The notes below the pieces were generated by a model that saw only the letters and a program-made list of their open reading frames with translations, was not told the origin of the DNA and searched no databases. A DNA stretch of 64,000 nt from Hoyosella subflava DQS3-9A1 (lineage in GTDB: Bacteria; Actinomycetota; Actinomycetes; Mycobacteriales; Mycobacteriaceae): assembly GCF_000214175.1 (NCBI RefSeq), contig NC_015564.1, positions 62,001 through 126,000 on the forward strand, given 5' to 3'. The number at the start of each line of letters is the position of its first letter. Within the stretch, counting starts at the first letter, position 1. Below are positions 28,143 to 61,555 of the stretch, piece by piece. The position numbers and the translations under genes were made by a program.

Positions 28143-28907
28143 GTGGAACCTGTCTACGGCCCTGTCGTTGCCATTGCAAAAGTTCTTTTCCGCGCCCAGG
28201 GACTCCAATTCTCCATCAAGGGAGAAGAGAACATGCCCCGGAAGGGCGGCGCGGTGATCGCCGTGAACCACACCGGCTATCTGGATTTCTTGTATGCGGG
28301 CAAAGCGATGGTTCCCGCAAAGCGTTACATCCGGTACATGGCCAAGCAGGAAGTGTTCGACCATCGCATCACTGGCCCAATCATGCGTTCCCTCAAGCAT
28401 ATTCCGGTCGATCGGGTAGCCGGCTCAGGTGCCTACGAGGCGGCAGTTCAGGCGCTGCGCGACGGCGAACTCGTGGGCGTGTACCCCGAGGCGACAATCA
28501 GCCGCAGTTTCGAGCTGAAAGAGTTCAAATCTGGCGCCGCGCGTATGGCGATCGAAGCCAACGTCCCGATCATCCCGATCGTTGTCTGGGGTGCGCAGCG
28601 TGTGTGGACCAAGGGCCACCCCAAGCGGCTGGGCCGAACGAACACGCCCATCTCCGTATCCGTCGGCGCACCGATCGCCCCGTTCGAGCCTGCCGCCGAA
28701 CTCACAGCGAAGGTGAAGGGCGTCATGCAAGAAATGCTGCTGAAGGTTCAGGATGAGTATGGCCCGCACCCCCAGGGCGAGTACTGGGTCCCGCGGCGAC
28801 TCGGGGGCAGTGCCCCAACGCTGGAGGAAGCAACCGAATTGGATCGTCGGGACACGGAGGCGCGCATAGCGGCCAGAAAGGCCAGAGAACAAGCAGGGCC
28901 TCAATGA
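28143..28907 (+). CDS. 1-acyl-sn-glycerol-3-phosphate acyltransferase (PlsC family), copy 1
   Basis: The 254-aa PlsC-family enzyme carries the catalytic NHTGYLD (NHxxxxD) and the YPEATISRSFELKEFKSG substrate-binding motif. It has little hydrophobic sequence before the active site, so it is peripheral or monotopic. The likely reaction is acylation of lysophosphatidate or a related glycolipid. The GTG start matches the mycobacterial protein start (MEPVYGPV). It overlaps copy 2 by 4 nt. The tandem pair matches M. tuberculosis Rv3816c-Rv3815c. Confidence 0.9.
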   Translation: MEPVYGPVVAIAKVLFRAQGLQFSIKGEENMPRKGGAVIAVNHTGYLDFLYAGKAMVPAKRYIRYMAKQEVFDHRITGPIMRSLKHIPVDRVAGSGAYEAAVQALRDGELVGVYPEATISRSFELKEFKSGAARMAIEANVPIIPIVVWGAQRVWTKGHPKRLGRTNTPISVSVGAPIAPFEPAAELTAKVKGVMQEMLLKVQDEYGPHPQGEYWVPRRLGGSAPTLEEATELDRRDTEARIAARKAREQAGPQ

Positions 28908-29695
28908 TCCGTAGCGCGCGAGAGACAGTCGCCAGCTCAATTGCTGTGCTGGCATACGGATTCTTCGTGTTGCTCGCCTACATCATTCGGGCCTACCAGG
29001 GAGCCCAGCTCACCGTGGTAGGTGCGGAGAACGTTCCACGCCAGGGTGGCGCTGTCTACGCGATCAACCACACCGGTTACATGGATCCAATGTATGCAGG
29101 GTTCGGGCCGCTTCGCGTTCGCCGGGCAGTCCGCTATATGGCCAAGGACGAGTTGTGGCGAAACCCCTTATCGCGAACGATCGTCACACTCACGCGTACG
29201 ATCCCCGTGGATCGGGAAGCCGGTGCAGCCTCCTACCAGGCAGCGGTCGCAGCACTCCGTGAAGGTGCCCTTCTGGGAGTGTTTCCGGAAGCAACCATCA
29301 GCCGCAGCTTTGAACTCAAGGAGTTCAAAAGTGGCGTCGCCCGGATGGCGATTGACGCGGACGTGCCGATCATCCCGGCTGTGCTGTGGGGCAGCCAACG
29401 GATAGCGACCAAAGGCAAACCGAAAAATCTGCACCGTTCGCGGACACCGCTGCGCCTACACATCGGCGAGCCGATACTCCCGACGCAACCACTCGACGAG
29501 CTCGTGCTGTCAGTGAGGTCGAGTATGCAGCAGCTGCTCGAGCACGCTCAGCAGCAGTACGGTGCCCATCCGTCAGGTGCGTGGTGGGTTCCGCAGCGCC
29601 TTGGTGGTGGCGCCCCGACTCTCAATGAGGCAACCCTCTTGGATAACGAGGAAATTGCTGAGCGGCGCGCCCGGAAGCGGAACCGGGACGCCTGA
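28904..29695 (+). CDS. 1-acyl-sn-glycerol-3-phosphate acyltransferase (PlsC family), copy 2
   Basis: This 263-aa paralogue of the preceding gene keeps the same motifs: NHTGYMD and FPEATISRSFELKEFKSG. It differs in having an N-terminal hydrophobic helix (SSIAVLAYGFFVLLAYII, about 11-28) that can anchor it in the membrane. The ATGA overlap shows translational coupling with copy 1. Both end in a similar RRLGGxAPTL-(E/N)-EAT module, a sign of tandem duplication. Different acyl or acceptor preference is a reasonable guess. Confidence 0.9.
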   Translation: MIRSARETVASSIAVLAYGFFVLLAYIIRAYQGAQLTVVGAENVPRQGGAVYAINHTGYMDPMYAGFGPLRVRRAVRYMAKDELWRNPLSRTIVTLTRTIPVDREAGAASYQAAVAALREGALLGVFPEATISRSFELKEFKSGVARMAIDADVPIIPAVLWGSQRIATKGKPKNLHRSRTPLRLHIGEPILPTQPLDELVLSVRSSMQQLLEHAQQQYGAHPSGAWWVPQRLGGGAPTLNEATLLDNEEIAERRARKRNRDA

Positions 29696-52125: not shown

Positions 52126-53670
52126 GTGAGCACCACAGCAGCGAAGCTGGCGGACCTTCGAGAAAAACTCGAGAAGGCCAAAGAACCCGGCGCCCCGAGC
52201 GCAATCGAAAAGCGCAACGCGAAAGGGCTTCCCTCGCCGCGTGAGCGTATCGACATGCTCCTCGACCACGGTAGCTTCGTCGAGATCGGCGCGCTCGTCA
52301 AGGCGCCGGGATCGGCCGACAATCCGTACGGCGATGGAGTGGTGACTGGCCACGGCACCGTCGAGGGTCGGCCCGTGGTTGTGTTCTCCCACGACCTGAC
52401 TGTTTTCGGCGGAAGCCTCGGTGAGATGTTCGGCCGGAAAGTGTGTGCCGCACTCGACTTCGCGCTGAAGATCGGCTGCCCCGTGGTGGGCATCAATGAT
52501 TCGGGTGGGGCGCGTGTTCAGGAAGCTGTCACTTCGCTCGCTTTCTACGCGGAGATCGGCAGGCGCCAAATCAAACTCTCCGGCTTAGTCCCCCAAATAT
52601 CTGTCATGCTCGGCAAATGTGCGGGCGGCGCCGTTTACGGCCCGGCTATCACCGATTACGTTGTCGCCGTCGATGATCAGGCGTACATGTTCATCACGGG
52701 ACCCGAGATCCTGAAAGCGGTGACAGGCGAAACCATCTCCGCTGAAGACCTCGGCGGCGCACGCAAGCAGGCGGAGTACGGCACGGTCAATCATGTCGCA
52801 CAAACCGAGGCAGATGCGTTCGCCTGGGTTCGCACACTTCTCGGTTACCTGCCCTCCAACTGCAATGAGGAACCGCCTGTCGTCAACCCCGGTCTGGAAC
52901 CTGAAATCACGGATTCAGACCGGTCGCTTGACTCCTTCATCCCGGATGCGGACAACTCCGCGTACGACATGCACGAAATCCTGCGGAGAGTATTCGATGA
53001 CGGCGAGTTCCACGAGATATCGTCCGAATACGCGCGCAGCATAATCGTCGGTTTCAGCCGGATCGACGGCCGCCCAGTCGGTGTGCTCGCGAACCAGCCG
53101 CTGCACCTCAGTGGTGCCCTCGACATCGACTCTTCCGAGAAGGCGTCCCGGTTCATCCGCTTCTGCAATGCGTTCGAGATTCCGATCGTCTGTGTGGTCG
53201 ATGTCCCGGGCTTCCTCCCCGGTCTGGAGCAGGAGCGCAACGGCATCATTCGCCGGGGAGCGAAGATCCTCAATTCGTATCTTGAGGCAGATGTGCCGAA
53301 GGTGACCGTGGTTGTGCGTAAAGCGTACGGCGGCGGTTACGCCGTGATGGGTTCGAAGAACCTCGGCGCGGACCTCAACTTTGCCTGGCCCACCGCCCGG
53401 ATCGCTGTCATGGGCGCGGAGGGCGCGGTCGCACTCCTAAAGCGCAGAGAACTTGCCGCAGCGGGGGACAAAGCCCCGGAACTCCGGCGCAAGTTCATCG
53501 ACCACTACAACGAGTTCATCTCCACGCCCTACATCGCTGCGGAACGCGGGTACATCGATGCCGTGATCGAACCGTCAGCTACGCGGCTGGAACTCCGCCG
53601 GGCTTTGCGTGCGCTGCAGGACAAGGCCCCGGAGCGTATGCCGAAGAAGTATTCGCTTCATCCCGGCTGA
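52126..53670 (+). CDS. accD4: acyl-CoA carboxylase beta subunit AccD4
   Basis: The 514-aa carboxyltransferase subunit works with a biotinylated AccA3 to carboxylate the C24-C26 acyl-CoA that becomes the mycolate alpha-branch. Visible are [14 protein letters not shown], the substrate loop [19 protein letters not shown], the oxyanion GGAVYGPAI and the second half with [22 protein letters not shown] 9 nt upstream marks GTG 52126 as the start; the longer frame overlaps pks13. It is the last gene of the operon and converges on the emb genes, the same arrangement as in M. tuberculosis. Confidence 0.96.
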
Positions 53671-53710
53671 TCCGCGCCGCCGATTCTGCGCGCCAGGACT
53701 GGTAACGGTC

Positions 53711-53768
53711 TGCCCGCCTCTGAGCGACAGTTTCCATCCACTAACAGTCTGTCGCTCAGAGGTGGGCG
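53711..53768. repeat. inverted repeat between accD4 and emb
   Basis: TGCCCGCCTCTGAGCGACAG (53711-53730) and CTGTCGCTCAGAGGTGGGCG (53749-53768) are complementary at 18 of 20 positions around an 18-nt loop. A third partial copy (TGCCCACCTC) follows at about 53779, and CGCCCACCTCTG also occurs near 7204 before vapB. It probably acts as a terminator between convergent genes and may be a dispersed repeat. Confidence 0.6.
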
Positions 53769-53849
53769 ATAAAGATATCTGCCCACCTCACCTCTGTGGA
53801 GGCGTAGCGCCGACCCATGGGTCGGCTCCGTAGCAAACCGTCCTGCTGC

Positions 53850-56800
53850 CTACCAGCTGATCTCGCCGGGCGTCCACCGGCCCCAACGCAGCTCCGTGCT
53901 GTGTTCGAGGTCAGCTGGGGCGGCCTCCTCGACATGTGGCGTGTAGCGGATGAGCTCGCCCCAGTCCCGGCGCCAATCATCAGCGAGGTAGCTGGCGAGA
54001 GTTGTTGGCCGATTCAGAGTGTTGGTGAGCCCGAGCGAGCCGCCAGCCGGGTGGCTTTGCCAGTTGTTCGCGCCTGCGATCACGCCGCGGTCAGGGGTGA
54101 TCCGGTATTCGGGATTCTGGGCAACGCCGTAGCGGTGCAGGTAAGGCTGCTGGCAGGGGAAATGCAGACCAACAGTCCAGTCGAGCAGCACAGGTGTTGT
54201 GGTGCCGACGATGTCCTGCAGTGTCTCAAGCTGGGGTACACGCGGTGGTGTGAGGCCGATCCACTGACGGGGCTCGAGGTCCGCGTCGCGTGCGACGACG
54301 CGGACGACATCGGCCTCGGGCGGGATGTCAGCCATCGGAACCCGCAGGTTCCGCCACATGGGGCTGGGGCCCGGGTCGATGGGCTGAATGCGGCCGAGAG
54401 CCTCATAATCGTCACCATCGCTGCGGCCGTACTCGAGCTCTACCCGCTGTCCGTACGTGTCGATTCCATCGCTGTCGACTGACGCGATGCGGCCCGCTGC
54501 GGTGATCACGACGAGCGGCGTCGCGTCGGACCGCTCGGGCAACTCGTACCAGTCAGTGGTGAGCTCAGCGACATTGCTCTGCTGAGCTTCATGGGTACCC
54601 GCGGTGGGGATGCGTGACGGATCAAGCCCGAAGGGCAACGGTACCAAGCTGCCGTTGATCCCAGGCTCGTCCAGTACCCGCGCGTCAAGGGAACCGCCGG
54701 TCACGAACGGGCCATCAGGGTCGATGGTGCTGGGTCCGTTGGCCCGTACTTCGATGTCTTCAGGTGCCAGATCGATCCGGAAACCGTTGGGGTCGAAACC
54801 CTGGCTGTACTGTCCGGTAAACGCTTCAACCGGGTCGTCGGTACTGACCGGTGTCAGGAACGAGTCATTGGGGTCCGTTTCTACTAAAACGTCGCGGGCG
54901 AGGCCACACGGCTCACCGAGTACCGCGTCCACATTCGACCGTCCGATGGAGTAGGACGGGTACTGCGAAACGGCGCCCTTCGCGAGTGACGCGAACTGGA
55001 ACAGCACCACCAGTCCTGTCACGACGGCGATTGGGGCCGCGAGAGGCACCAGGAACCACTTTCGTTTGCCCTGAGCCTCCGTATACCGGAGATAGAGGAA
55101 AGCGCCCACCAGGAGCAGCGCCAGACCGAAAACGAGCACACCCGTCGCTAGCGTGTAGCCCTGGATAGACGGCCGCTTGTCCCACCACGGCACGCCGAAA
55201 CTTCCCACATACCAGTACGCGTTGGGCCCGGTAGCTGCGTACGCGGCGATGATGACGACTATTCCGGTGAACAACACGCGGTTTCGCGGCGATTGGAAAA
55301 GCGGCGTCGTCAGTGCGACGGCCGCAAGCGCCGCAATCGCGGCTCCAATACCCGCGAACGCGCCGAAGTGGTGTACCCACTTGGTCGGTGTAGCTGCGAG
55401 GAATCCGAACGACATGATCGACACCGCGAGCAAACGCAGCGTGGGGCCCTTCGCCAGTTTGCTCTTCGACGCGGAGTGAATGATCGCCGCCGCGGCAGTG
55501 AAGATACAGACGATCATGATCAGGACTGGGAACCGGCGCGCAATCGATCCGTCGGCAGTCTGACTGAACAGTTCGCTGTATCGGAAGAACTCGTTGTACC
55601 AGCTATTAGACGGTCCGATGATGGTTCGGAGGCGGCTGGCTTCGCTGACGGCGGCGAGGGTCTGGTCGTAGAAGATGATGAAGAGGACGGCGGTGCCGGC
55701 GGCGAGGAGGGGGCGGTGAGGGCGGCCCGAGGCGAGGGGGGTGTGTTTGTTGCCGGTGGTGGTGTTTGGCGTGAGTTGTTTGGCGCGTTTGATGAGGATG
55801 GCGAGCAGGGGGCGCGAGCCGGCGAGCAGGGCGGCAACGGCCATGAGTCCGGTGGGGCCTGCGGCGAGGGAGAACGCGGCGATGATGGTGGCGATGGCGG
55901 CGGGGAGCAGGCGTCCGGTGGCGATGGCGCGTTCGACGCTGATCCAGGTGAGCAGGGCGCCGACGGCGATGACGGGTTCGGGGCGCAGGCCGTTGTTGTA
56001 GGGGAGCCAGAAGGCGAGGAAGACGGCGGCGGCGGTCCAGTAGACGGCGGGGGTGTGGCGGGCGCGGCGGCCGAGGCGGGGGATGACTTCGCGGGAGATG
56101 ATCCACCAGCAGAGGATGCTGGCGATGAGGGTGGTGAGGCGGACGAAGGGGCTGGCGGTGGAGAGGGCAGCGAGGGCGGCGGTGACGTCGTAGAACCATC
56201 CGAAGGGGGCTTCGGGGACGCCGTACCAGCGGTAGTAGTTGGCCATGTAGCCGGCGTGGCCGGCGACGCGGGCCATGTTGAGGATGTAGCCGTCGTCGGC
56301 GGTGTTGGCGCCGATGAAGTACCAGCCGAGCAGGATCGCGCCGACGATGAGGTCGAGGGGGGAGAGTTTCCACCAGGAGGCGGGCAGGAAGCGGCGGTGG
56401 CGGCGGCCGTCGGTGAGGTCGAGGCGGTGCAGGGCGGCGAGGGAGACGAGGGTGGCGATGGCGCCGATGGTGATGGCGAGGATTTTCAGCAGGGTGGGGC
56501 TGGTGGTGAACCGGGAGTCCACCTCGATGGTGACGTTCAGCCCGTCCGGAGCAGGACCCTCCAAATCCGTAAACACACCCACGACCTGTGGCATGAAGTT
56601 GCCCTCACGGGTGGTGGACGCGAGGTCGTCAGAACCGGCAACACCAGTGAACTCGGTGGTGAGCTGATTAGTCGTGATGTTGAGGCGGATCTCGTCGCAC
56701 CCAGTGATCTGCTCTCTGGGGATCGAGTGCAGGACGCTGTTTCGCGCGACGATCTGAGCCTGGGTTTCGGTGGCGCGGATCTGGAGGCCGAAGCGCTGGC

Positions 56801-57113
56801 TGTCGGGTGATTGTGCGGGGATGGTGGCCGCGACGAGTCCGCCCTCGTCGGGCAGGTCGTTGAAGACTGCGCAGGGGATGGTGGCGCTGACCTCGACGGG
56901 CAGGTAGGAGATGAGGGGCGCTTCGATGCTGGTGGCCTGGTCGTCTTGGGGCCAGCTGATCGTGGTGGTGGTCTGATGCACCGGCAGCAGCGGCGTCGCC
57001 ACCGCAAGCAGGAACCCGGCCAGACCCGTCAGCAGCGCAACAATGCGCGCAGCCCTTACACCACTGTCAGTCACTGAACCACCCGTCTTCGACGACTCCA
57101 TTCCCACAGGCAC
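53850..57113 (-). CDS. arabinosyltransferase, EmbA/B/C family, paralogue 1
   Basis: The 1087-aa membrane enzyme builds arabinan of arabinogalactan or lipoarabinomannan from DPA. Fifteen or so membrane helices are followed by a periplasmic C-terminal region with carbohydrate-binding parts (WYELPERSD, FPCQQPYLHRYG). The catalytic Asp pair is Asp273-Asp274 in TADDGYILNMARVAGHAGYM. Val324 occupies the site of M. tuberculosis EmbB Met306. Two long stretches are essentially identical to paralogue 2. Residues about 462-468 read SGRPHRP where paralogue 2 has WAALTAP, due to compensating -1/+1 shifts. The start is GTG 57113 (GTG 57107 and ATG 57101 also possible). Confidence 0.93.
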   Translation of the reverse strand: MPVGMESSKTGGSVTDSGVRAARIVALLTGLAGFLLAVATPLLPVHQTTTTISWPQDDQATSIEAPLISYLPVEVSATIPCAVFNDLPDEGGLVAATIPAQSPDSQRFGLQIRATETQAQIVARNSVLHSIPREQITGCDEIRLNITTNQLTTEFTGVAGSDDLASTTREGNFMPQVVGVFTDLEGPAPDGLNVTIEVDSRFTTSPTLLKILAITIGAIATLVSLAALHRLDLTDGRRHRRFLPASWWKLSPLDLIVGAILLGWYFIGANTADDGYILNMARVAGHAGYMANYYRWYGVPEAPFGWFYDVTAALAALSTASPFVRLTTLIASILCWWIISREVIPRLGRRARHTPAVYWTAAAVFLAFWLPYNNGLRPEPVIAVGALLTWISVERAIATGRLLPAAIATIIAAFSLAAGPTGLMAVAALLAGSRPLLAILIKRAKQLTPNTTTGNKHTPLASGRPHRPLLAAGTAVLFIIFYDQTLAAVSEASRLRTIIGPSNSWYNEFFRYSELFSQTADGSIARRFPVLIMIVCIFTAAAAIIHSASKSKLAKGPTLRLLAVSIMSFGFLAATPTKWVHHFGAFAGIGAAIAALAAVALTTPLFQSPRNRVLFTGIVVIIAAYAATGPNAYWYVGSFGVPWWDKRPSIQGYTLATGVLVFGLALLLVGAFLYLRYTEAQGKRKWFLVPLAAPIAVVTGLVVLFQFASLAKGAVSQYPSYSIGRSNVDAVLGEPCGLARDVLVETDPNDSFLTPVSTDDPVEAFTGQYSQGFDPNGFRIDLAPEDIEVRANGPSTIDPDGPFVTGGSLDARVLDEPGINGSLVPLPFGLDPSRIPTAGTHEAQQSNVAELTTDWYELPERSDATPLVVITAAGRIASVDSDGIDTYGQRVELEYGRSDGDDYEALGRIQPIDPGPSPMWRNLRVPMADIPPEADVVRVVARDADLEPRQWIGLTPPRVPQLETLQDIVGTTTPVLLDWTVGLHFPCQQPYLHRYGVAQNPEYRITPDRGVIAGANNWQSHPAGGSLGLTNTLNRPTTLASYLADDWRRDWGELIRYTPHVEEAAPADLEHSTELRWGRWTPGEISW
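55772..56569 (-). repeat. 798-bp emb conversion block, copy in paralogue 1
   Basis: The sequence is identical, by eye, to 59182-59979 (offset 3410). It encodes the middle membrane region including the catalytic Asp pair and the EmbB-306 equivalent. Codons are almost uniformly C-ending: Ala is nearly always GCC, unlike flanking emb sequence where GCG predominates. Similarity continues with scattered differences down to about 55629. Confidence 0.9.
56757..57050 (-). repeat. 294-bp emb conversion block (N-terminal), copy in paralogue 1
   Basis: This matches 60155-60448 with one mismatch found (C/T at 56828). It encodes the first membrane helix and the start of the first periplasmic domain. It is separated from the larger block by a divergent stretch of about 170-190 bp that differs by 12 bp in length between copies. 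Confidence 0.88.
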
Positions 57114-57121
57114 AAGTCACG

Positions 57122-57127
57122 ATGGTA
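57122..57127 (-). promoter_or_regulatory. putative -10 box (TACCAT) of emb paralogue 1
   Basis: TACCAT ends 8 nt before GTG 57113. It lies in a 12-mer, CGAATACCATCG, found at exactly the same distance before the other emb start. No Shine-Dalgarno is seen, suggesting a leaderless transcript and a separate promoter for this paralogue. Confidence 0.5.
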
Positions 57128-57229
57128 TTCGCACAGCGTCCGAATCCCCGCCTGAGCGTACGGATTCTTAGCTTAAGAGTGATCACAAACTCATTTACGT
57201 GAGTGCTGTGTTATTGATCGGAGTGTTAT

Positions 57230-60200
57230 CTACCGGATCGGACCAGGATTCCACCGCCCAGACCGCGTAGTAGTATCCAGCGCCAGCTCAGCAGGGACAG
57301 CATCGGGATCATAAGGCTCAAAAGTGAGCAGTGAACCCCAGTCTCGATCCCAGTCATCGCGCAGGTAAGTCGGGAGCGCTATAGGTGCGCCCACGAGCGC
57401 GGTCACGCCCACGGGACCGCCCCCGTAGCTGCCCTGCGCGATATCCGTGCCAGCTTTGAGTTCGAAATCGCCTGTGATGCGGTACCGCGGCATATCGAGA
57501 ACACCGTATCTGTGGAGGAAAGGCTGCTGACAGGGGAATGAGAGGCCGACGGACCAGTCGATGAGAACCGGTGATTCGGTACCGACAACATCGCCCAGTG
57601 TGCTCATTGCCGGAAGCCTCGGCGGCGTCAGCGCAACCCACTGATCCTCAGCGAGTTCGTCATCGCGAGCTATGACGCGAACGGCGTTGGCTTCCTCCGG
57701 GATCGCGGCCATGGGGATGCGGAGATTGCGCCACGACGGGATCGGCCCGATATCAAGCGGCTGGATGCTGCCTTGGACTTCGATGTCAGTTTCCGGGCCA
57801 CCCTGGGTCCCGTATTCGATCTCGACCACCGGTCCGCGAATACTGCGGCCGAACGGATCTACGGAAGCTACACGTCCCGCGATAGTCATAACGAGCACGG
57901 GCGTGTCGTCGGATCGGGCAGGAAGCTCGTACCAGCCCGATGTGAGGGCGCCGCGGCCGCCACCGGGGCGGTAGCTGCCAAGAAGTGGCACCTGCGCCGG
58001 ATCAAGCCCGAACGGGAGCGGCACAATGCTGTCATTGATGCCAGGAGCCTCCAGCGGACCTGACGTTCCCGTGCCCGTCGGATCTATCGTGGTCAGCTCT
58101 TCCTCAGCATCACTCTCGCCCATGGCGACGGGCGTCGATGCTGTGCCGTCATCTTCGAGCGACTCCGGAGTGAGGTCCCCGGCGACGCCGTTCGCGGTGA
58201 AACCAGTGTTTTCCCCCTGATCGAGCGCTGTGACTGCGTCGATGTCACCTATCGGTTTGAGAAGCCCTGCTGTGGGATCAGTCTCAACCAGCACGTCCCT
58301 CGCCATTCCGCACGGCTCGCCACCGACGGCATCAAAGTTGGCGCGCGCCACGGAATACGCAGGGTATTGACTTACCGCGCCCACCGTCATTGACACGAGC
58401 TGCCAGATGACCACAGCGAAGGACACGATCATGACGGGTGCTGTGGTCACCACGCGGACCGGCCAGGGTGGGTCGAACTTTCCTTTGCGGAGCTCGAGAT
58501 AGTGGAAAATCGCCGCCGCTATGAGCAGCAGCAGCGTCAGGGCCAGGAGCCAGTTCGCCACACCGCGCCCCAGGAACAGCGGGGGCCTGTCATCGAAGGG
58601 CACCCCATAGTTGGAGACGTGCCACCAGCGGTTTGTGCCGGTCAGCGCGAAGGCGACAACGAACATCAGCACAGACAGCGCGAGAAGGCGGTTACGGGCG
58701 GACCGAAGGATCGTCGGGCCCATCGCGATGGCCGTGAGTGCGGCCACAGCAGCACCGACTCCGGCGAACGCGCCGAAGTGGTGCGTCCACTTGGTGGGTG
58801 TCAGTGTCAGGAACAGCAGTGAACCGACCGTTACGCCGAGGATGCGCGCGGCAGGGCCGGTCGGTACTCCAGGCAGGCCACCCCTACGGATGATCGCCGC
58901 TGCGGAGATCGTGATGCAGAAGAACAAAATCAGTACAGCGAAACGCCGTGACAGCGAGCCATCCGAGGCAGGACCGAACAGTTCCTCATATCGGACCATT
59001 TCCTCGTACCACGTCAATGACGGGCCCACCGCAGTGCGGAGGCGGCTGGCTTCGCTGACGGCGGCGAGGGTCTGGTCCCGGAAAACAATGAAGAGGACGG
59101 CGGTGCCTGCGGCAAGGAGGGGGGCGGTGAGGGCGGCCCAGGCGAGGGGGGTGTGTTTGTTGCCGGTGGTGGTGTTTTGGCTGAGTTGTTTGGCGCGTTT
59201 GATGAGGATGGCGAGCAGGGGGCGCGAGCCGGCGAGCAGGGCGGCAACGGCCATGAGTCCGGTGGGGCCTGCGGCGAGGGAGAACGCGGCGATGATGGTG
59301 GCGATGGCGGCGGGGAGCAGGCGTCCGGTGGCGATGGCGCGTTCGACGCTGATCCAGGTGAGCAGGGCGCCGACGGCGATGACGGGTTCGGGGCGCAGGC
59401 CGTTGTTGTAGGGGAGCCAGAAGGCGAGGAAGACGGCGGCGGCGGTCCAGTAGACGGCGGGGGTGTGGCGGGCGCGGCGGCCGAGGCGGGGGATGACTTC
59501 GCGGGAGATGATCCACCAGCAGAGGATGCTGGCGATGAGGGTGGTGAGGCGGACGAAGGGGCTGGCGGTGGAGAGGGCAGCGAGGGCGGCGGTGACGTCG
59601 TAGAACCATCCGAAGGGGGCTTCGGGGACGCCGTACCAGCGGTAGTAGTTGGCCATGTAGCCGGCGTGGCCGGCGACGCGGGCCATGTTGAGGATGTAGC
59701 CGTCGTCGGCGGTGTTGGCGCCGATGAAGTACCAGCCGAGCAGGATCGCGCCGACGATGAGGTCGAGGGGGGAGAGTTTCCACCAGGAGGCGGGCAGGAA
59801 GCGGCGGTGGCGGCGGCCGTCGGTGAGGTCGAGGCGGTGCAGGGCGGCGAGGGAGACGAGGGTGGCGATGGCGCCGATGGTGATGGCGAGGATTTTCAGC
59901 AGGGTGGGGCTGGTGGTGAACCGGGAGTCCACCTCGATGGTGACGTTCAGCCCGTCCGGAGCAGGACCCTCCAAATCCGAAAACACACCCACGACGTACG
60001 GCATCTGGTTGCCGTCGCGGATCTGGGGCTCCACATCAATACCCGCGAATTCGGCAGTGACCGCGCCTTTTGTGATCCCTACTAGAAGCTGATCACAGTT
60101 CGCGAGTTCTTCGAGCGGCTGCGACGCGACCAGCGCGTTCCTGACCAGCACCTCAGCCTGGGTTTCGGTGGCGCGGATCTGGAGGCCGAAGCGCTGGCTG

Positions 60201-60493
60201 TCGGGTGATTGTGCGGGGATGGTGGCTGCGACGAGTCCGCCCTCGTCGGGCAGGTCGTTGAAGACTGCGCAGGGGATGGTGGCGCTGACCTCGACGGGCA
60301 GGTAGGAGATGAGGGGCGCTTCGATGCTGGTGGCCTGGTCGTCTTGGGGCCAGCTGATCGTGGTGGTGGTCTGATGCACCGGCAGCAGCGGCGTCGCCAC
60401 CGCAAGCAGGAACCCGGCCAGACCCGTCAGCAGCGCAACAATGCGCGCGACGCGTAGGCGACCATCAGATTTCGAACCACCAGAACTCGGCAC
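57230..60493 (-). CDS. arabinosyltransferase, EmbA/B/C family, paralogue 2
   Basis: This 1087-aa protein has the same length and role as paralogue 1. The catalytic Asp pair is Asp263-Asp264 and the EmbB-306 equivalent is Val314. Membrane helices fill about 15-700; the C-terminal periplasmic part (WYELPARSDDTPVLV, FPCQQPFLHRYG) differs clearly from paralogue 1, so the two probably divide functions, as EmbA/B/C do. The acidic region about 755-800 (ESDAEEELTTIDPTG) is specific to this copy. It is upstream of paralogue 1 on the same strand, with a 116-bp gap. Which of EmbA, EmbB or EmbC it matches best cannot be decided by eye. Confidence 0.93.
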   Translation of the reverse strand: MPSSGGSKSDGRLRVARIVALLTGLAGFLLAVATPLLPVHQTTTTISWPQDDQATSIEAPLISYLPVEVSATIPCAVFNDLPDEGGLVAATIPAQSPDSQRFGLQIRATETQAEVLVRNALVASQPLEELANCDQLLVGITKGAVTAEFAGIDVEPQIRDGNQMPYVVGVFSDLEGPAPDGLNVTIEVDSRFTTSPTLLKILAITIGAIATLVSLAALHRLDLTDGRRHRRFLPASWWKLSPLDLIVGAILLGWYFIGANTADDGYILNMARVAGHAGYMANYYRWYGVPEAPFGWFYDVTAALAALSTASPFVRLTTLIASILCWWIISREVIPRLGRRARHTPAVYWTAAAVFLAFWLPYNNGLRPEPVIAVGALLTWISVERAIATGRLLPAAIATIIAAFSLAAGPTGLMAVAALLAGSRPLLAILIKRAKQLSQNTTTGNKHTPLAWAALTAPLLAAGTAVLFIVFRDQTLAAVSEASRLRTAVGPSLTWYEEMVRYEELFGPASDGSLSRRFAVLILFFCITISAAAIIRRGGLPGVPTGPAARILGVTVGSLLFLTLTPTKWTHHFGAFAGVGAAVAALTAIAMGPTILRSARNRLLALSVLMFVVAFALTGTNRWWHVSNYGVPFDDRPPLFLGRGVANWLLALTLLLLIAAAIFHYLELRKGKFDPPWPVRVVTTAPVMIVSFAVVIWQLVSMTVGAVSQYPAYSVARANFDAVGGEPCGMARDVLVETDPTAGLLKPIGDIDAVTALDQGENTGFTANGVAGDLTPESLEDDGTASTPVAMGESDAEEELTTIDPTGTGTSGPLEAPGINDSIVPLPFGLDPAQVPLLGSYRPGGGRGALTSGWYELPARSDDTPVLVMTIAGRVASVDPFGRSIRGPVVEIEYGTQGGPETDIEVQGSIQPLDIGPIPSWRNLRIPMAAIPEEANAVRVIARDDELAEDQWVALTPPRLPAMSTLGDVVGTESPVLIDWSVGLSFPCQQPFLHRYGVLDMPRYRITGDFELKAGTDIAQGSYGGGPVGVTALVGAPIALPTYLRDDWDRDWGSLLTFEPYDPDAVPAELALDTTTRSGRWNPGPIR
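59182..59979 (-). repeat. 798-bp emb conversion block, copy in paralogue 2
   Basis: This is the identical partner of 55772-56569. At its downstream edge this copy keeps the hydrophobic reading WAALTAPLLAAG, so it appears to be the unshifted version. Confidence 0.9.
60155..60448 (-). repeat. 294-bp emb conversion block (N-terminal), copy in paralogue 2
   Basis: This is the partner of 56757-57050, offset 3398, with one mismatch. It ends sharply a few codons after the protein N-terminus. Confidence 0.88.
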
Positions 60494-60501
60494 AATCCCC
60501 G

Positions 60502-60507
60502 ATGGTA
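60502..60507 (-). promoter_or_regulatory. putative -10 box (TACCAT) of emb paralogue 2
   Basis: TACCAT ends 8 nt before GTG 60493, within the same CGAATACCATCG 12-mer as at paralogue 1. Confidence 0.5.
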
Positions 60508-60561
60508 TTCGTACGGTGTGGCATTACCTTCCGACGGGCCGTCGCCGGGAACCTGAGTTTG

Positions 60562-60777
60562 CTATTCGCGGGGGTAATCGTCGTCTTCGGGGACCTCCTG
60601 AAGCTGTTCAGCTACGTCGGCCTCGTTGGCACCGAAAATCTCTGATGCGCTGATGGACGGAGACGAGCCGGTGTCTTCGTCAGCTCCCACTGAGAGTTCC
60701 TGTTCGAGGCGGTCAGCCTCGGGCACATCCTCGGAAGTGGACGGAACCCTGCGGGAAGACGGAATTCGTGCTGACAT
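60562..60777 (-). CDS. small acidic conserved protein
   Basis: This 71-aa protein has a short basic start (MSARIPSSRRVP) and then an acidic, helix-prone body: EDVPEADRLEQELSVGADED and ANEADVAEQLQEVPEDDD. Small VPEAD-x-LEQ proteins occur widely in Mycobacteriales; I know of no function. It is a real gene: AAGGAGGAG sits 4-5 nt before the ATG, the strongest ribosome site in the window. No signal peptide or domain is seen. It lies upstream of the emb genes on the same strand, about 70 bp away. Confidence 0.75.
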   Translation of the reverse strand: MSARIPSSRRVPSTSEDVPEADRLEQELSVGADEDTGSSPSISASEIFGANEADVAEQLQEVPEDDDYPRE

Positions 60778-60994
60778 CGTGCTCCTCCTTACATCTCTGT
60801 CGAGAAGTGAGCCCGCTGGTGAGCTGCACGGCTTCTAGCTTGCCTATCCAGTGTAGTGAACATGGGTCGGGGCGCTACCCGTCCCGCTGCCAGTACGACT
60901 TCACCACCTCGAGTCCCGGTGGAGGGCGCAAATCGGACAAAAAGTGGTATGTCGGGTAGCAGAGTCAGGTCTGGGCGAGACCAAATCCGGACGA

Positions 60995-61000
60995 TATGCT
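60995..61000 (+). promoter_or_regulatory. putative -10 box (TATGCT) of lipoprotein gene
   Basis: TATGCT lies 24 nt before the lipoprotein ATG and is followed by GGAGG at an ordinary spacing, so this gene has a leader, unlike the leaderless examples. Confidence 0.45.
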
Positions 61001-61024
61001 CAATCCGGCTCCTGGAGGTGTCAT

Positions 61025-61555
61025 ATGCGTATCCGTGTGCTGCTTGCAGCTTTCGTGGTGTGTTCAGTCTCCGCGTGTGGTGGCGAGCAACCGGCAGTGG
61101 AAACTACGGAACCGCCACCAGTCGAGCCGGCAACCGAAGGCGCGGCCACTGCTGCTGAGCCGCAACAGCCTGCACTCGAGTCAGACGACAGCCCGGCTGG
61201 GACGGGCATCATTGCTGCGGGCAGTGAGTTCGGCGACATGCTCTACGACGATTCGGGACAGGCGATTTACCTATTCGACGTCGAAAGCGACGGCGAGCCA
61301 CTGTGCTACGAACAGTGCGCGCTCGCCTGGCCTCCAGTATTGACCGAGGGCGAGCCCGTGGGGGCCGACGGGGTCGTCACCGAATTGCTGGGAACTGTCG
61401 AGCGTACGGACGGCGCCACCCAAGTCACCTACAACGATTGGCCGTTGTACTTCTACGCGGCCGAAGAGCCGTGGGAGGTTAAGTGCCACAACGTCTTCGG
61501 CTTCGGCGGGTTGTGGCTTGTCGTGACACCAGAAGGCGAGGCGGCGCCGCATTGA
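61025..61555 (+). CDS. lipoprotein with secreted-repeat domain (COG4315 type)
   Basis: The 176-aa protein starts with a lipoprotein signal (VLLAAFVVCSVSAC, lipid-modified Cys about 18). A Thr/Pro/Glu-rich linker follows, then a domain built on the YDDSGQAIYLFD element with paired Cys (LCYEQCALAWPPV) and a second YNDWPLYFYA element. This is the 'secreted repeat of unknown function' family of actinobacterial lipoproteins. GGAGG 6 nt before ATG 61025 sets the start. It converges on nirD across a hairpin. Confidence 0.85.
   Translation: MRIRVLLAAFVVCSVSACGGEQPAVETTEPPPVEPATEGAATAAEPQQPALESDDSPAGTGIIAAGSEFGDMLYDDSGQAIYLFDVESDGEPLCYEQCALAWPPVLTEGEPVGADGVVTELLGTVERTDGATQVTYNDWPLYFYAAEEPWEVKCHNVFGFGGLWLVVTPEGEAAPH

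Follow-up and report, generated by a model that had tools for sequence, protein, structure and literature searches.

Evidence for recurrent gene conversion limited to part of two tandem emb arabinosyltransferase genes in Hoyosella

Concerted evolution lasting over long periods has been described for 26 prokaryotic genes, tuf and 25 others, in a study that, in the part available, treats genes evolving in concert from end to end and defers cases limited to a portion of a gene (PMC6053082). Conversion between paralogues is also reported from antigen loci of Mycobacterium tuberculosis (PMC13061034), among them a PE_PGRS pair (PMC1762029). Here we describe a pair of tandem genes for Emb arabinosyltransferases in a stretch of 64,000 nucleotides of the Hoyosella subflava DQS3-9A1 genome (contig NC_015564.1, positions 62,001 to 126,000), hereafter the window, in which two separate tracts are kept identical or nearly so between genes that are otherwise clearly different.

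As in the tuf-type pairs, paralogues within a species are closer than orthologues between species, also at synonymous sites, but those pairs are described as converted at full length (PMC6053082), whereas the emb pair is affected over part of the gene and carries a diverged segment between its two tracts. The antigen loci share with the emb pair conversion between paralogues and the bacterial order; they are however antigen families in the accessible portions of both reports (PMC13061034, PMC1762029), while the emb genes encode two cell-wall arabinosyltransferases, and their tracts lie at nearly the same place in both species examined. The same three Pfam domains and the DD motif are found in the mycobacterial EmbA, EmbB and EmbC proteins, as far as the excerpts of the EmbB literature go (PMC7341804, PMC7305291). 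Unlike those mycobacteria, H. subflava has two emb genes only, and none of 130 control pairs contains such a tract. Judged by title, a literature search on gene conversion together with arabinosyltransferase and emb gave nothing relevant, and among the matches listed for Hoyosella no title concerned emb conversion.

The emb pair and its identical tracts

The genes, tracts and motif are as follows.

57230..60493, minus strand: emb1 (Hs1), upstream Emb arabinosyltransferase gene; 1087 codons; PF17689, PF04602 and PF14896 far above cut-off
53850..57113, minus strand: emb2 (Hs2), downstream Emb arabinosyltransferase gene; 1087 codons; same three Pfam domains as emb1
59182..59979, minus strand: tract B in emb1; 798 bp, residues about 172-437; identical to 55772-56569
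55772..56569, minus strand: tract B in emb2; identical to 59182-59979
60155..60448, minus strand: tract A in emb1; 294 bp, residues 16-113; one difference from 56757-57050
56757..57050, minus strand: tract A in emb2; one difference, at 56829
59981..60154, minus strand: segment M in emb1, lying between the tracts; its site patterns mark it as a paralogue-specific stretch of the N-terminal domain that escaped conversion
56571..56756, minus strand: segment M in emb2, delimited by the same site patterns
59702..59707, minus strand: DD motif codons (Hs1 D263-D264), inside tract B; aligned to D285-D286 of M. smegmatis EmbB

Both genes are full-length, without an internal stop, and are separated by 116 bp. 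The Emb N-terminal, membrane and C-terminal domains (PF17689, PF04602, PF14896) are present in Hs1 and Hs2, the DD motif of the catalytic loop reads DDGY at Hs1 263, and the best PDB match of Hs1 is EmbC (7bve_A, 1025 bits); the two are predicted to be complete Emb arabinosyltransferases (GT-C). A search of the genome (contig of 4,738,809 bp) at E <= 0.001 recovered this pair and no third emb gene.

The original prediction, made from the letters of the window, held that a 798-bp block and a second block with one difference are shared by two paralogues with diverged flanks. All of this proved exact, letter for letter, and the 798/798 match of tract B is maximal, with no one-base extension possible on either side. 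In 30-codon windows Hs1 and Hs2 are 97-100% identical inside the tracts and 40-83% identical outside them, the highest outside value lying at the right edge of the large tract, and identity is thus not equal along the whole gene. Runs of identity were tested by permutation, a check similar to the GENECONV test proposed along with the prediction. Silent codons differ at 182 of 696 positions with a longest difference-free run of 271, a run that none of 20000 permutations reached in the window genes, where the permutation maximum was 49; in the second species described below the observed run was likewise reached by 0 of 20000. Identity at synonymous sites, the sharp edges and the silent-codon run point to gene conversion.

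Tract B contains the DD motif and also the residue aligned to E313 of M. smegmatis EmbB, in which, according to the portions of the structural reports at hand, the donor sugar sits between D285 and E313 (PMC7341804, PMC7305291). The tract stops at residue 437 and reaches neither the HHFG motif, at 571, nor the C-terminal domain. The first histidine of HHFG aligns with H580 of M. smegmatis EmbB, which the accessible text counts among the residues compared at the drug pocket. The position that we take to be codon 306 of M. tuberculosis EmbB is inside tract B, and the one that we take to be codon 497 lies beyond its end. The expectation that the block covers the catalytic aspartate pair and the region tied to ethambutol thus held for the DD motif and codon 306 and failed for HHFG and codon 497. 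By alignment, tract B is predicted to cover part, not all, of the drug-associated region, and this has no bearing on the susceptibility of H. subflava.

Repeated homogenisation in a second species

Comparison covered seven clade genomes, three of Hoyosella and four of Lolliginicoccus (the genus of G022), and both emb copies can be read in two species, H. subflava and its closest named relative H. altamirensis DSM 45258 (G002; locus L032; 97% in the best segment). The pair of H. altamirensis, labelled Ha1 and Ha2, has the same two tracts. Its paralogues are identical over 290 and 863 bp, at gene positions 46-335 and 499-1361, compared with 46-339 (one difference) and 515-1312 in the window genes, and the start of tract A at gene position 46 falls on the same base in both species. 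The large tract is 98% identical between the species, and within each species both copies carry the same letters, so that within the tracts paralogues are closer within a species than orthologues are between the two species. Sites compared across all four genes divide as follows.

Tract A: 1 species-specific, 0 paralogue-specific, 2 other
Segment M: 0 species-specific, 69 paralogue-specific, 12 other varying
Tract B: 15 species-specific, 0 paralogue-specific, 1 other
Edge, residues 438-479: 2 species-specific, 5 paralogue-specific, 17 other
From residue 480 on: 2 species-specific, 629 paralogue-specific, 3 crossed, 183 other

The trees conflict in the same manner. In a protein tree of the B region Hs1 joins Hs2 (bootstrap 100) and Ha1 joins its identical Ha2, whereas in a C-region tree made by a quick method Hs1 groups with Ha1, and Hs2 with Ha2 and the gene of G043, which we take to be Lolliginicoccus suaedae. 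The C-region tree places the duplication before the split of the two species and before the separation of Hoyosella from Lolliginicoccus. Identity within species, difference between species and conflicting trees together indicate recurrent concerted evolution of part of the gene. We therefore favour recurrent gene conversion of the tandem emb paralogues, limited to residues about 16-113 and 172-440, with a probability of roughly 0.92. Conversion between the paralogues, as originally proposed, is well supported; the description of it as recent is incomplete, since the same tracts were homogenised separately in H. altamirensis.

Under this history, emb would have been duplicated before the two genera separated, and each Hoyosella species would since have overwritten its two copies with each other. 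The pathway would probably be homologous recombination, the direct repeats being spaced by about 3.4 kb. Identity would in this way be maintained at the beginning of the protein, in one portion of the N-terminal domain and in the front half of the membrane core, DD motif included, while residues 114-171 and everything from about residue 480 would evolve independently and remain different. Selection may keep segment M different, and the drafts whose assembly breaks at emb may have tracts in the same state. Read this way, the emb pair is a clean example of concerted evolution acting on a portion of the gene only; it has recurred since the two species diverged, perhaps in another genus as well, and leaves a diverged segment between the homogenised tracts.

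The other five genomes (G001, the third of Hoyosella, and G022, G041, G042 and G043) are drafts in which emb is cut by contig ends or by a run of 204 N, so that the pair is resolved in 2 of 7. Contig breaks were surveyed within the clade, and we infer that they reflect a collapsed repeat; draft assemblies appear to lose such genes, the locus being incomplete in all five of these drafts. The C-terminal emb piece is emb2-like in every one of the five (71-86%, against 48-57% to emb1), and the Lolliginicoccus genomes show at most one copy of the block.

Several observations weigh against recurrent conversion or narrow its support. Each draft has one N-terminal and one C-terminal emb piece at the locus, from which a second copy is deduced, and the N-terminal piece is clearly emb1-like in G001 only (71% vs 63%); in the other four it is about equally close to Hs1 and Hs2, that of G043 being closer to Hs2 (67% vs 62%). 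The Lolliginicoccus drafts may accordingly contain a single broken or fused emb gene. Tract A offers one species-specific site, little on which to base repeated conversion of that tract alone, and the Hs1-Hs2 grouping in the B tree has a value of 47 in the Shimodaira-Hasegawa-like approximate likelihood ratio test (SH-aLRT) despite its bootstrap of 100. The exact 100% identity could in part be a consensus artefact of assembling near-identical copies, although near identity combined with species-specific sites would not be.

A single conversion in the common ancestor of the two Hoyosella species, followed by strong purifying selection that included synonymous sites, would account for the shared 5' edge and for the low divergence of the tract between species, where 11 of 175 four-fold degenerate sites differ in B as against 71/376 and 55/340 in the C-terminal part. 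One old event would however be expected to leave paralogue-specific or many single-copy differences, and in tract B 15 differences are common to both copies of a species, none separates the paralogues and one is confined to a single copy; we consider this history highly unlikely. That one emb region was duplicated or merged by the assembler is harder still to credit. The incomplete locus in five drafts is what such an error might produce, but the resolved pairs of two species differ outside the tracts and carry species-specific sites within them, and the same arrangement in a second, independently sequenced species makes an artefact unlikely.

The controls were 130 emb pairs from 80 loci, which include Mycobacterium, Nocardia and Rhodococcus, some loci being the same genome reached twice. 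No comparable tract was found among them; the longest exact match, counted without overlapping open reading frames, was 75 bp, and the fraction of same-codon matches was at most 0.14 higher in B than in C. Long exact matches seen initially in some control pairs were produced by overlapping frames and were gone on recount. A third emb gene with ordinary codon usage was found in G001 on the other side of dnaA (L112; G001:C24:260152-267313); the search of H. altamirensis, unlike that of G001, returned two emb genes only.

An island of C-ending codons over the tracts

Most of tract B lies within an island of codons ending in C, and a smaller island overlaps tract A. Values are the fraction of C at four-fold degenerate sites in 40-codon windows, and all edges are approximate.

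59054..59896, minus strand: C-ending codon island in emb1; residues about 200-480; 0.76-1.00, then 0.31 from residue 481
55644..56486, minus strand: C-ending codon island in emb2; 0.71-1.00, then 0.37
60164..60373, minus strand: smaller C-rich island in emb1; residues about 41-110; 0.80 and 0.64 in two windows
56766..56975, minus strand: smaller C-rich island in emb2; 0.80 and 0.67

Over block B, four-fold C is 84-86% in Hoyosella, 90% in G043 and 84% in G042 (70 sites available), and in the C-terminal parts it is 36-37%, 59% and 29%, respectively; G001 has 15 four-fold sites in the block (C 0.67), which say little. Across 1779 windows of 266 codons (364 kb) of the H. subflava genome the mean is 0.377, with a standard deviation of 0.062 and a maximum of 0.573. 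An island at the same residues was not seen in 200 control emb genes or in the third emb gene of G001, and the largest excess of B over the C-terminal part among control genes was 0.13. C-rich islands of 80 codons do occur elsewhere, with maxima of 0.72 for the remaining sample of the H. subflava genome, 0.84 for neighbouring genes within the clade and 0.95 for other genera. Three Nocardia loci have such islands near the far end of emb (L068:9884-13273, 0.95; L101:9242-13432, 0.92; L067:13550-16831, 0.87).

The shift is towards C and not towards G+C. Four-fold G in block B drops from about 0.34 to 0.10-0.11 and T is 0.03, all four lysine codons of the island are AAA, and NNR codons end in A in 9 of 11 cases in Hs1 and in 1 of 9 in G043. 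Codon positions one and two are mildly shifted to A and C (z 2.1 in Hs1, 1.9 in Ha1 and 4.1 in G043, against the 200 controls). Leucine is an exception, keeping about 30% CTG while other four-fold codons are nearly all C-ending: the ratio of C to G is 26:11 against 123:8 for the other four-fold codons in Hs1 (p 0.0003), 27:10 against 130:6 in G043 (p 0.0002) and 15:2 against 44:1 in G042 (p 0.18). The large island has sharp edges in Hoyosella, near residues 200 and 480, and starts earlier in G043 and G042, within residues 161-200; the smaller island is missing in G042. Identity and C-richness do not coincide, as residues 16-40 and 172-190 of Hoyosella are identical between copies yet not C-rich and residues 438-480 are C-rich yet not identical between the window copies. 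The tracts also carry long open reading frames in alternative frames and on the opposite strand; these are probably a by-product of C at third positions and were not taken as genes. G-quadruplex motifs were absent from the tracts of the four Hoyosella genes; Hs2 and Ha2 each have one in their C-terminal part.

The island over most of tract B is real and old, conversion may or may not be its cause, and none of the simple explanations tried accounts for it. Something strand-asymmetric acts on the composition of the tract. With converted and unconverted DNA side by side in two genes, the locus lends itself to asking if base composition is influenced by conversion in bacteria that rely on NucS mismatch repair.

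Candidate causes of the island

Models of the composition were fitted to three lineages, with H. altamirensis left out of the sum as it nearly repeats the window. The negative log likelihood (-lnL) was 433.5 for no bias, 367.8 for symmetric GC bias, 289.7 for the NucS rule alone, 239.3 for a one-parameter rule in which C wins and 237.1 for NucS with a preference of C over A (two parameters); the near-equal last two values mean that the fit does not single out the latter.

GC-biased gene conversion has been proposed in bacteria (PMC4450053) and elsewhere said not to be observed there (PMC8153448), as far as the available parts of these sources go. The emb tracts recall it in that recombination and base composition at synonymous sites may be linked, but their shift is strand-asymmetric, with C and not G increased, and the symmetric form does not describe it. 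Four-fold GC is indeed higher in B than in the C-terminal part (0.949-0.955 vs about 0.71 in Hoyosella, 0.989 vs 0.901 in G043, and 0.886 over 109 codons vs 0.561 in G042), as a strand-symmetric bias raising tract GC would have it. Such a bias predicts that C and G both rise and that A-ending NNR codons become fewer, whereas C is 0.84, G falls and Hs1 has its 9 of 11, and it fits worse than the C-wins rule. A variant with a C-rich starting state and slow exchange between C and G keeps some probability, but the NNR codons of Hoyosella speak against it. The symmetric form at equilibrium, which the high GC at third positions had suggested, was dropped once composition by base showed an increase of C only, and symmetric bias as a whole is very improbable.

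Import of the core from a donor with C-ending codon usage, followed by spread between the paralogues, would fit the sharp edges and codon usage unlike that of the genome sample. The B-region tree however keeps Hoyosella, G043 and the third emb gene of G001 together (100/99), and no donor gene closer than the clade's own emb was found among the best 80 loci. Four-fold divergence between the genera (0.18 for Hs2-G043 at 141 sites, 0.29 for Hs1-G042 at 48 sites) is near the low ceiling estimated for such a composition, C having been kept up after long divergence. With this grouping and divergence a recent import is unlikely, and we doubt import as the cause.

Conversion itself might write the pattern through a strand-asymmetric bias. 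NucS of M. smegmatis acts on G-G, G-T and T-T, the other mismatches tested escaping it (PMC11551767), and short-patch repair by NucS is described (PMC11551744), both according to the accessible portions of the reports. If the incoming strand were always the coding strand, incoming C and A would, under NucS repair, take the place of G and T, and not the reverse. A further preference of C over A, for instance by removal of A opposite G, would let the coding strand drift to C. Removal of A opposite G is a MutY activity. In favour of such a bias, the island at residues about 200-480 is seen only in this emb pair, NucS is present in all 10 genomes searched, and NucS with C over A fits three lineages of very different ambient GC about as well as the C-wins rule. 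The control of the NucS search, Corynebacterium glutamicum, has the protein. In all 7 clade genomes emb is found on the strand opposite dnaA at a distance of about 100-190 kb, one conserved arrangement, and is probably head-on to replication. Against it, the model predicts 0.41 A-ending NNR codons in G043, where 1 of 9 was observed, leucine keeps CTG, identity and C-richness end at different places in Hoyosella, G042 has no C-rich tract A, and a Lolliginicoccus pair is only deduced. On balance this bias is an improbable cause; if true, the tract would preserve a natural trace of mismatch repair that treats the two strands differently in recombination.

We lean slightly, and tentatively, to selection on codons or mRNA in this segment, independent of conversion. 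It would explain why leucine keeps CTG while other four-fold codons go to C, and it fits the identical stretches that are not C-rich (16-40, 172-190) and the C-rich stretch that is not identical (438-480). The lack of an island at these residues in the G001 third gene and the 200 control genes stands against it, as does codon usage in putative ribosomal-protein genes of the genome (identified by first residues, L2 by search), where C is 0.33-0.50. In the plus-strand genes of a 20-kb ribosomal-protein stretch, taken together, AAG:AAA is 234:32 and CAG:CAA 144:16, as against AAA in 4 of 4 and T of 0.03 in the island. Translational optimisation was rejected on this dissimilarity.

In emb2 an insertion and a deletion of one base each, separated by about 20 bp (55705-55735, approximate), shift the frame for about seven codons, so that emb2 reads SGRPHRP where emb1 has WAALTAP. 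The nucleotides match and the protein does not, and the frame differs from emb1 and both H. altamirensis copies; this may be a real change or a sequencing error. No Rfam family reached its gathering score within 53000-61500. Elsewhere in the window there is a weak direct repeat, 28401-28577 and 29201-29377, with 73% identity over 177 bp.

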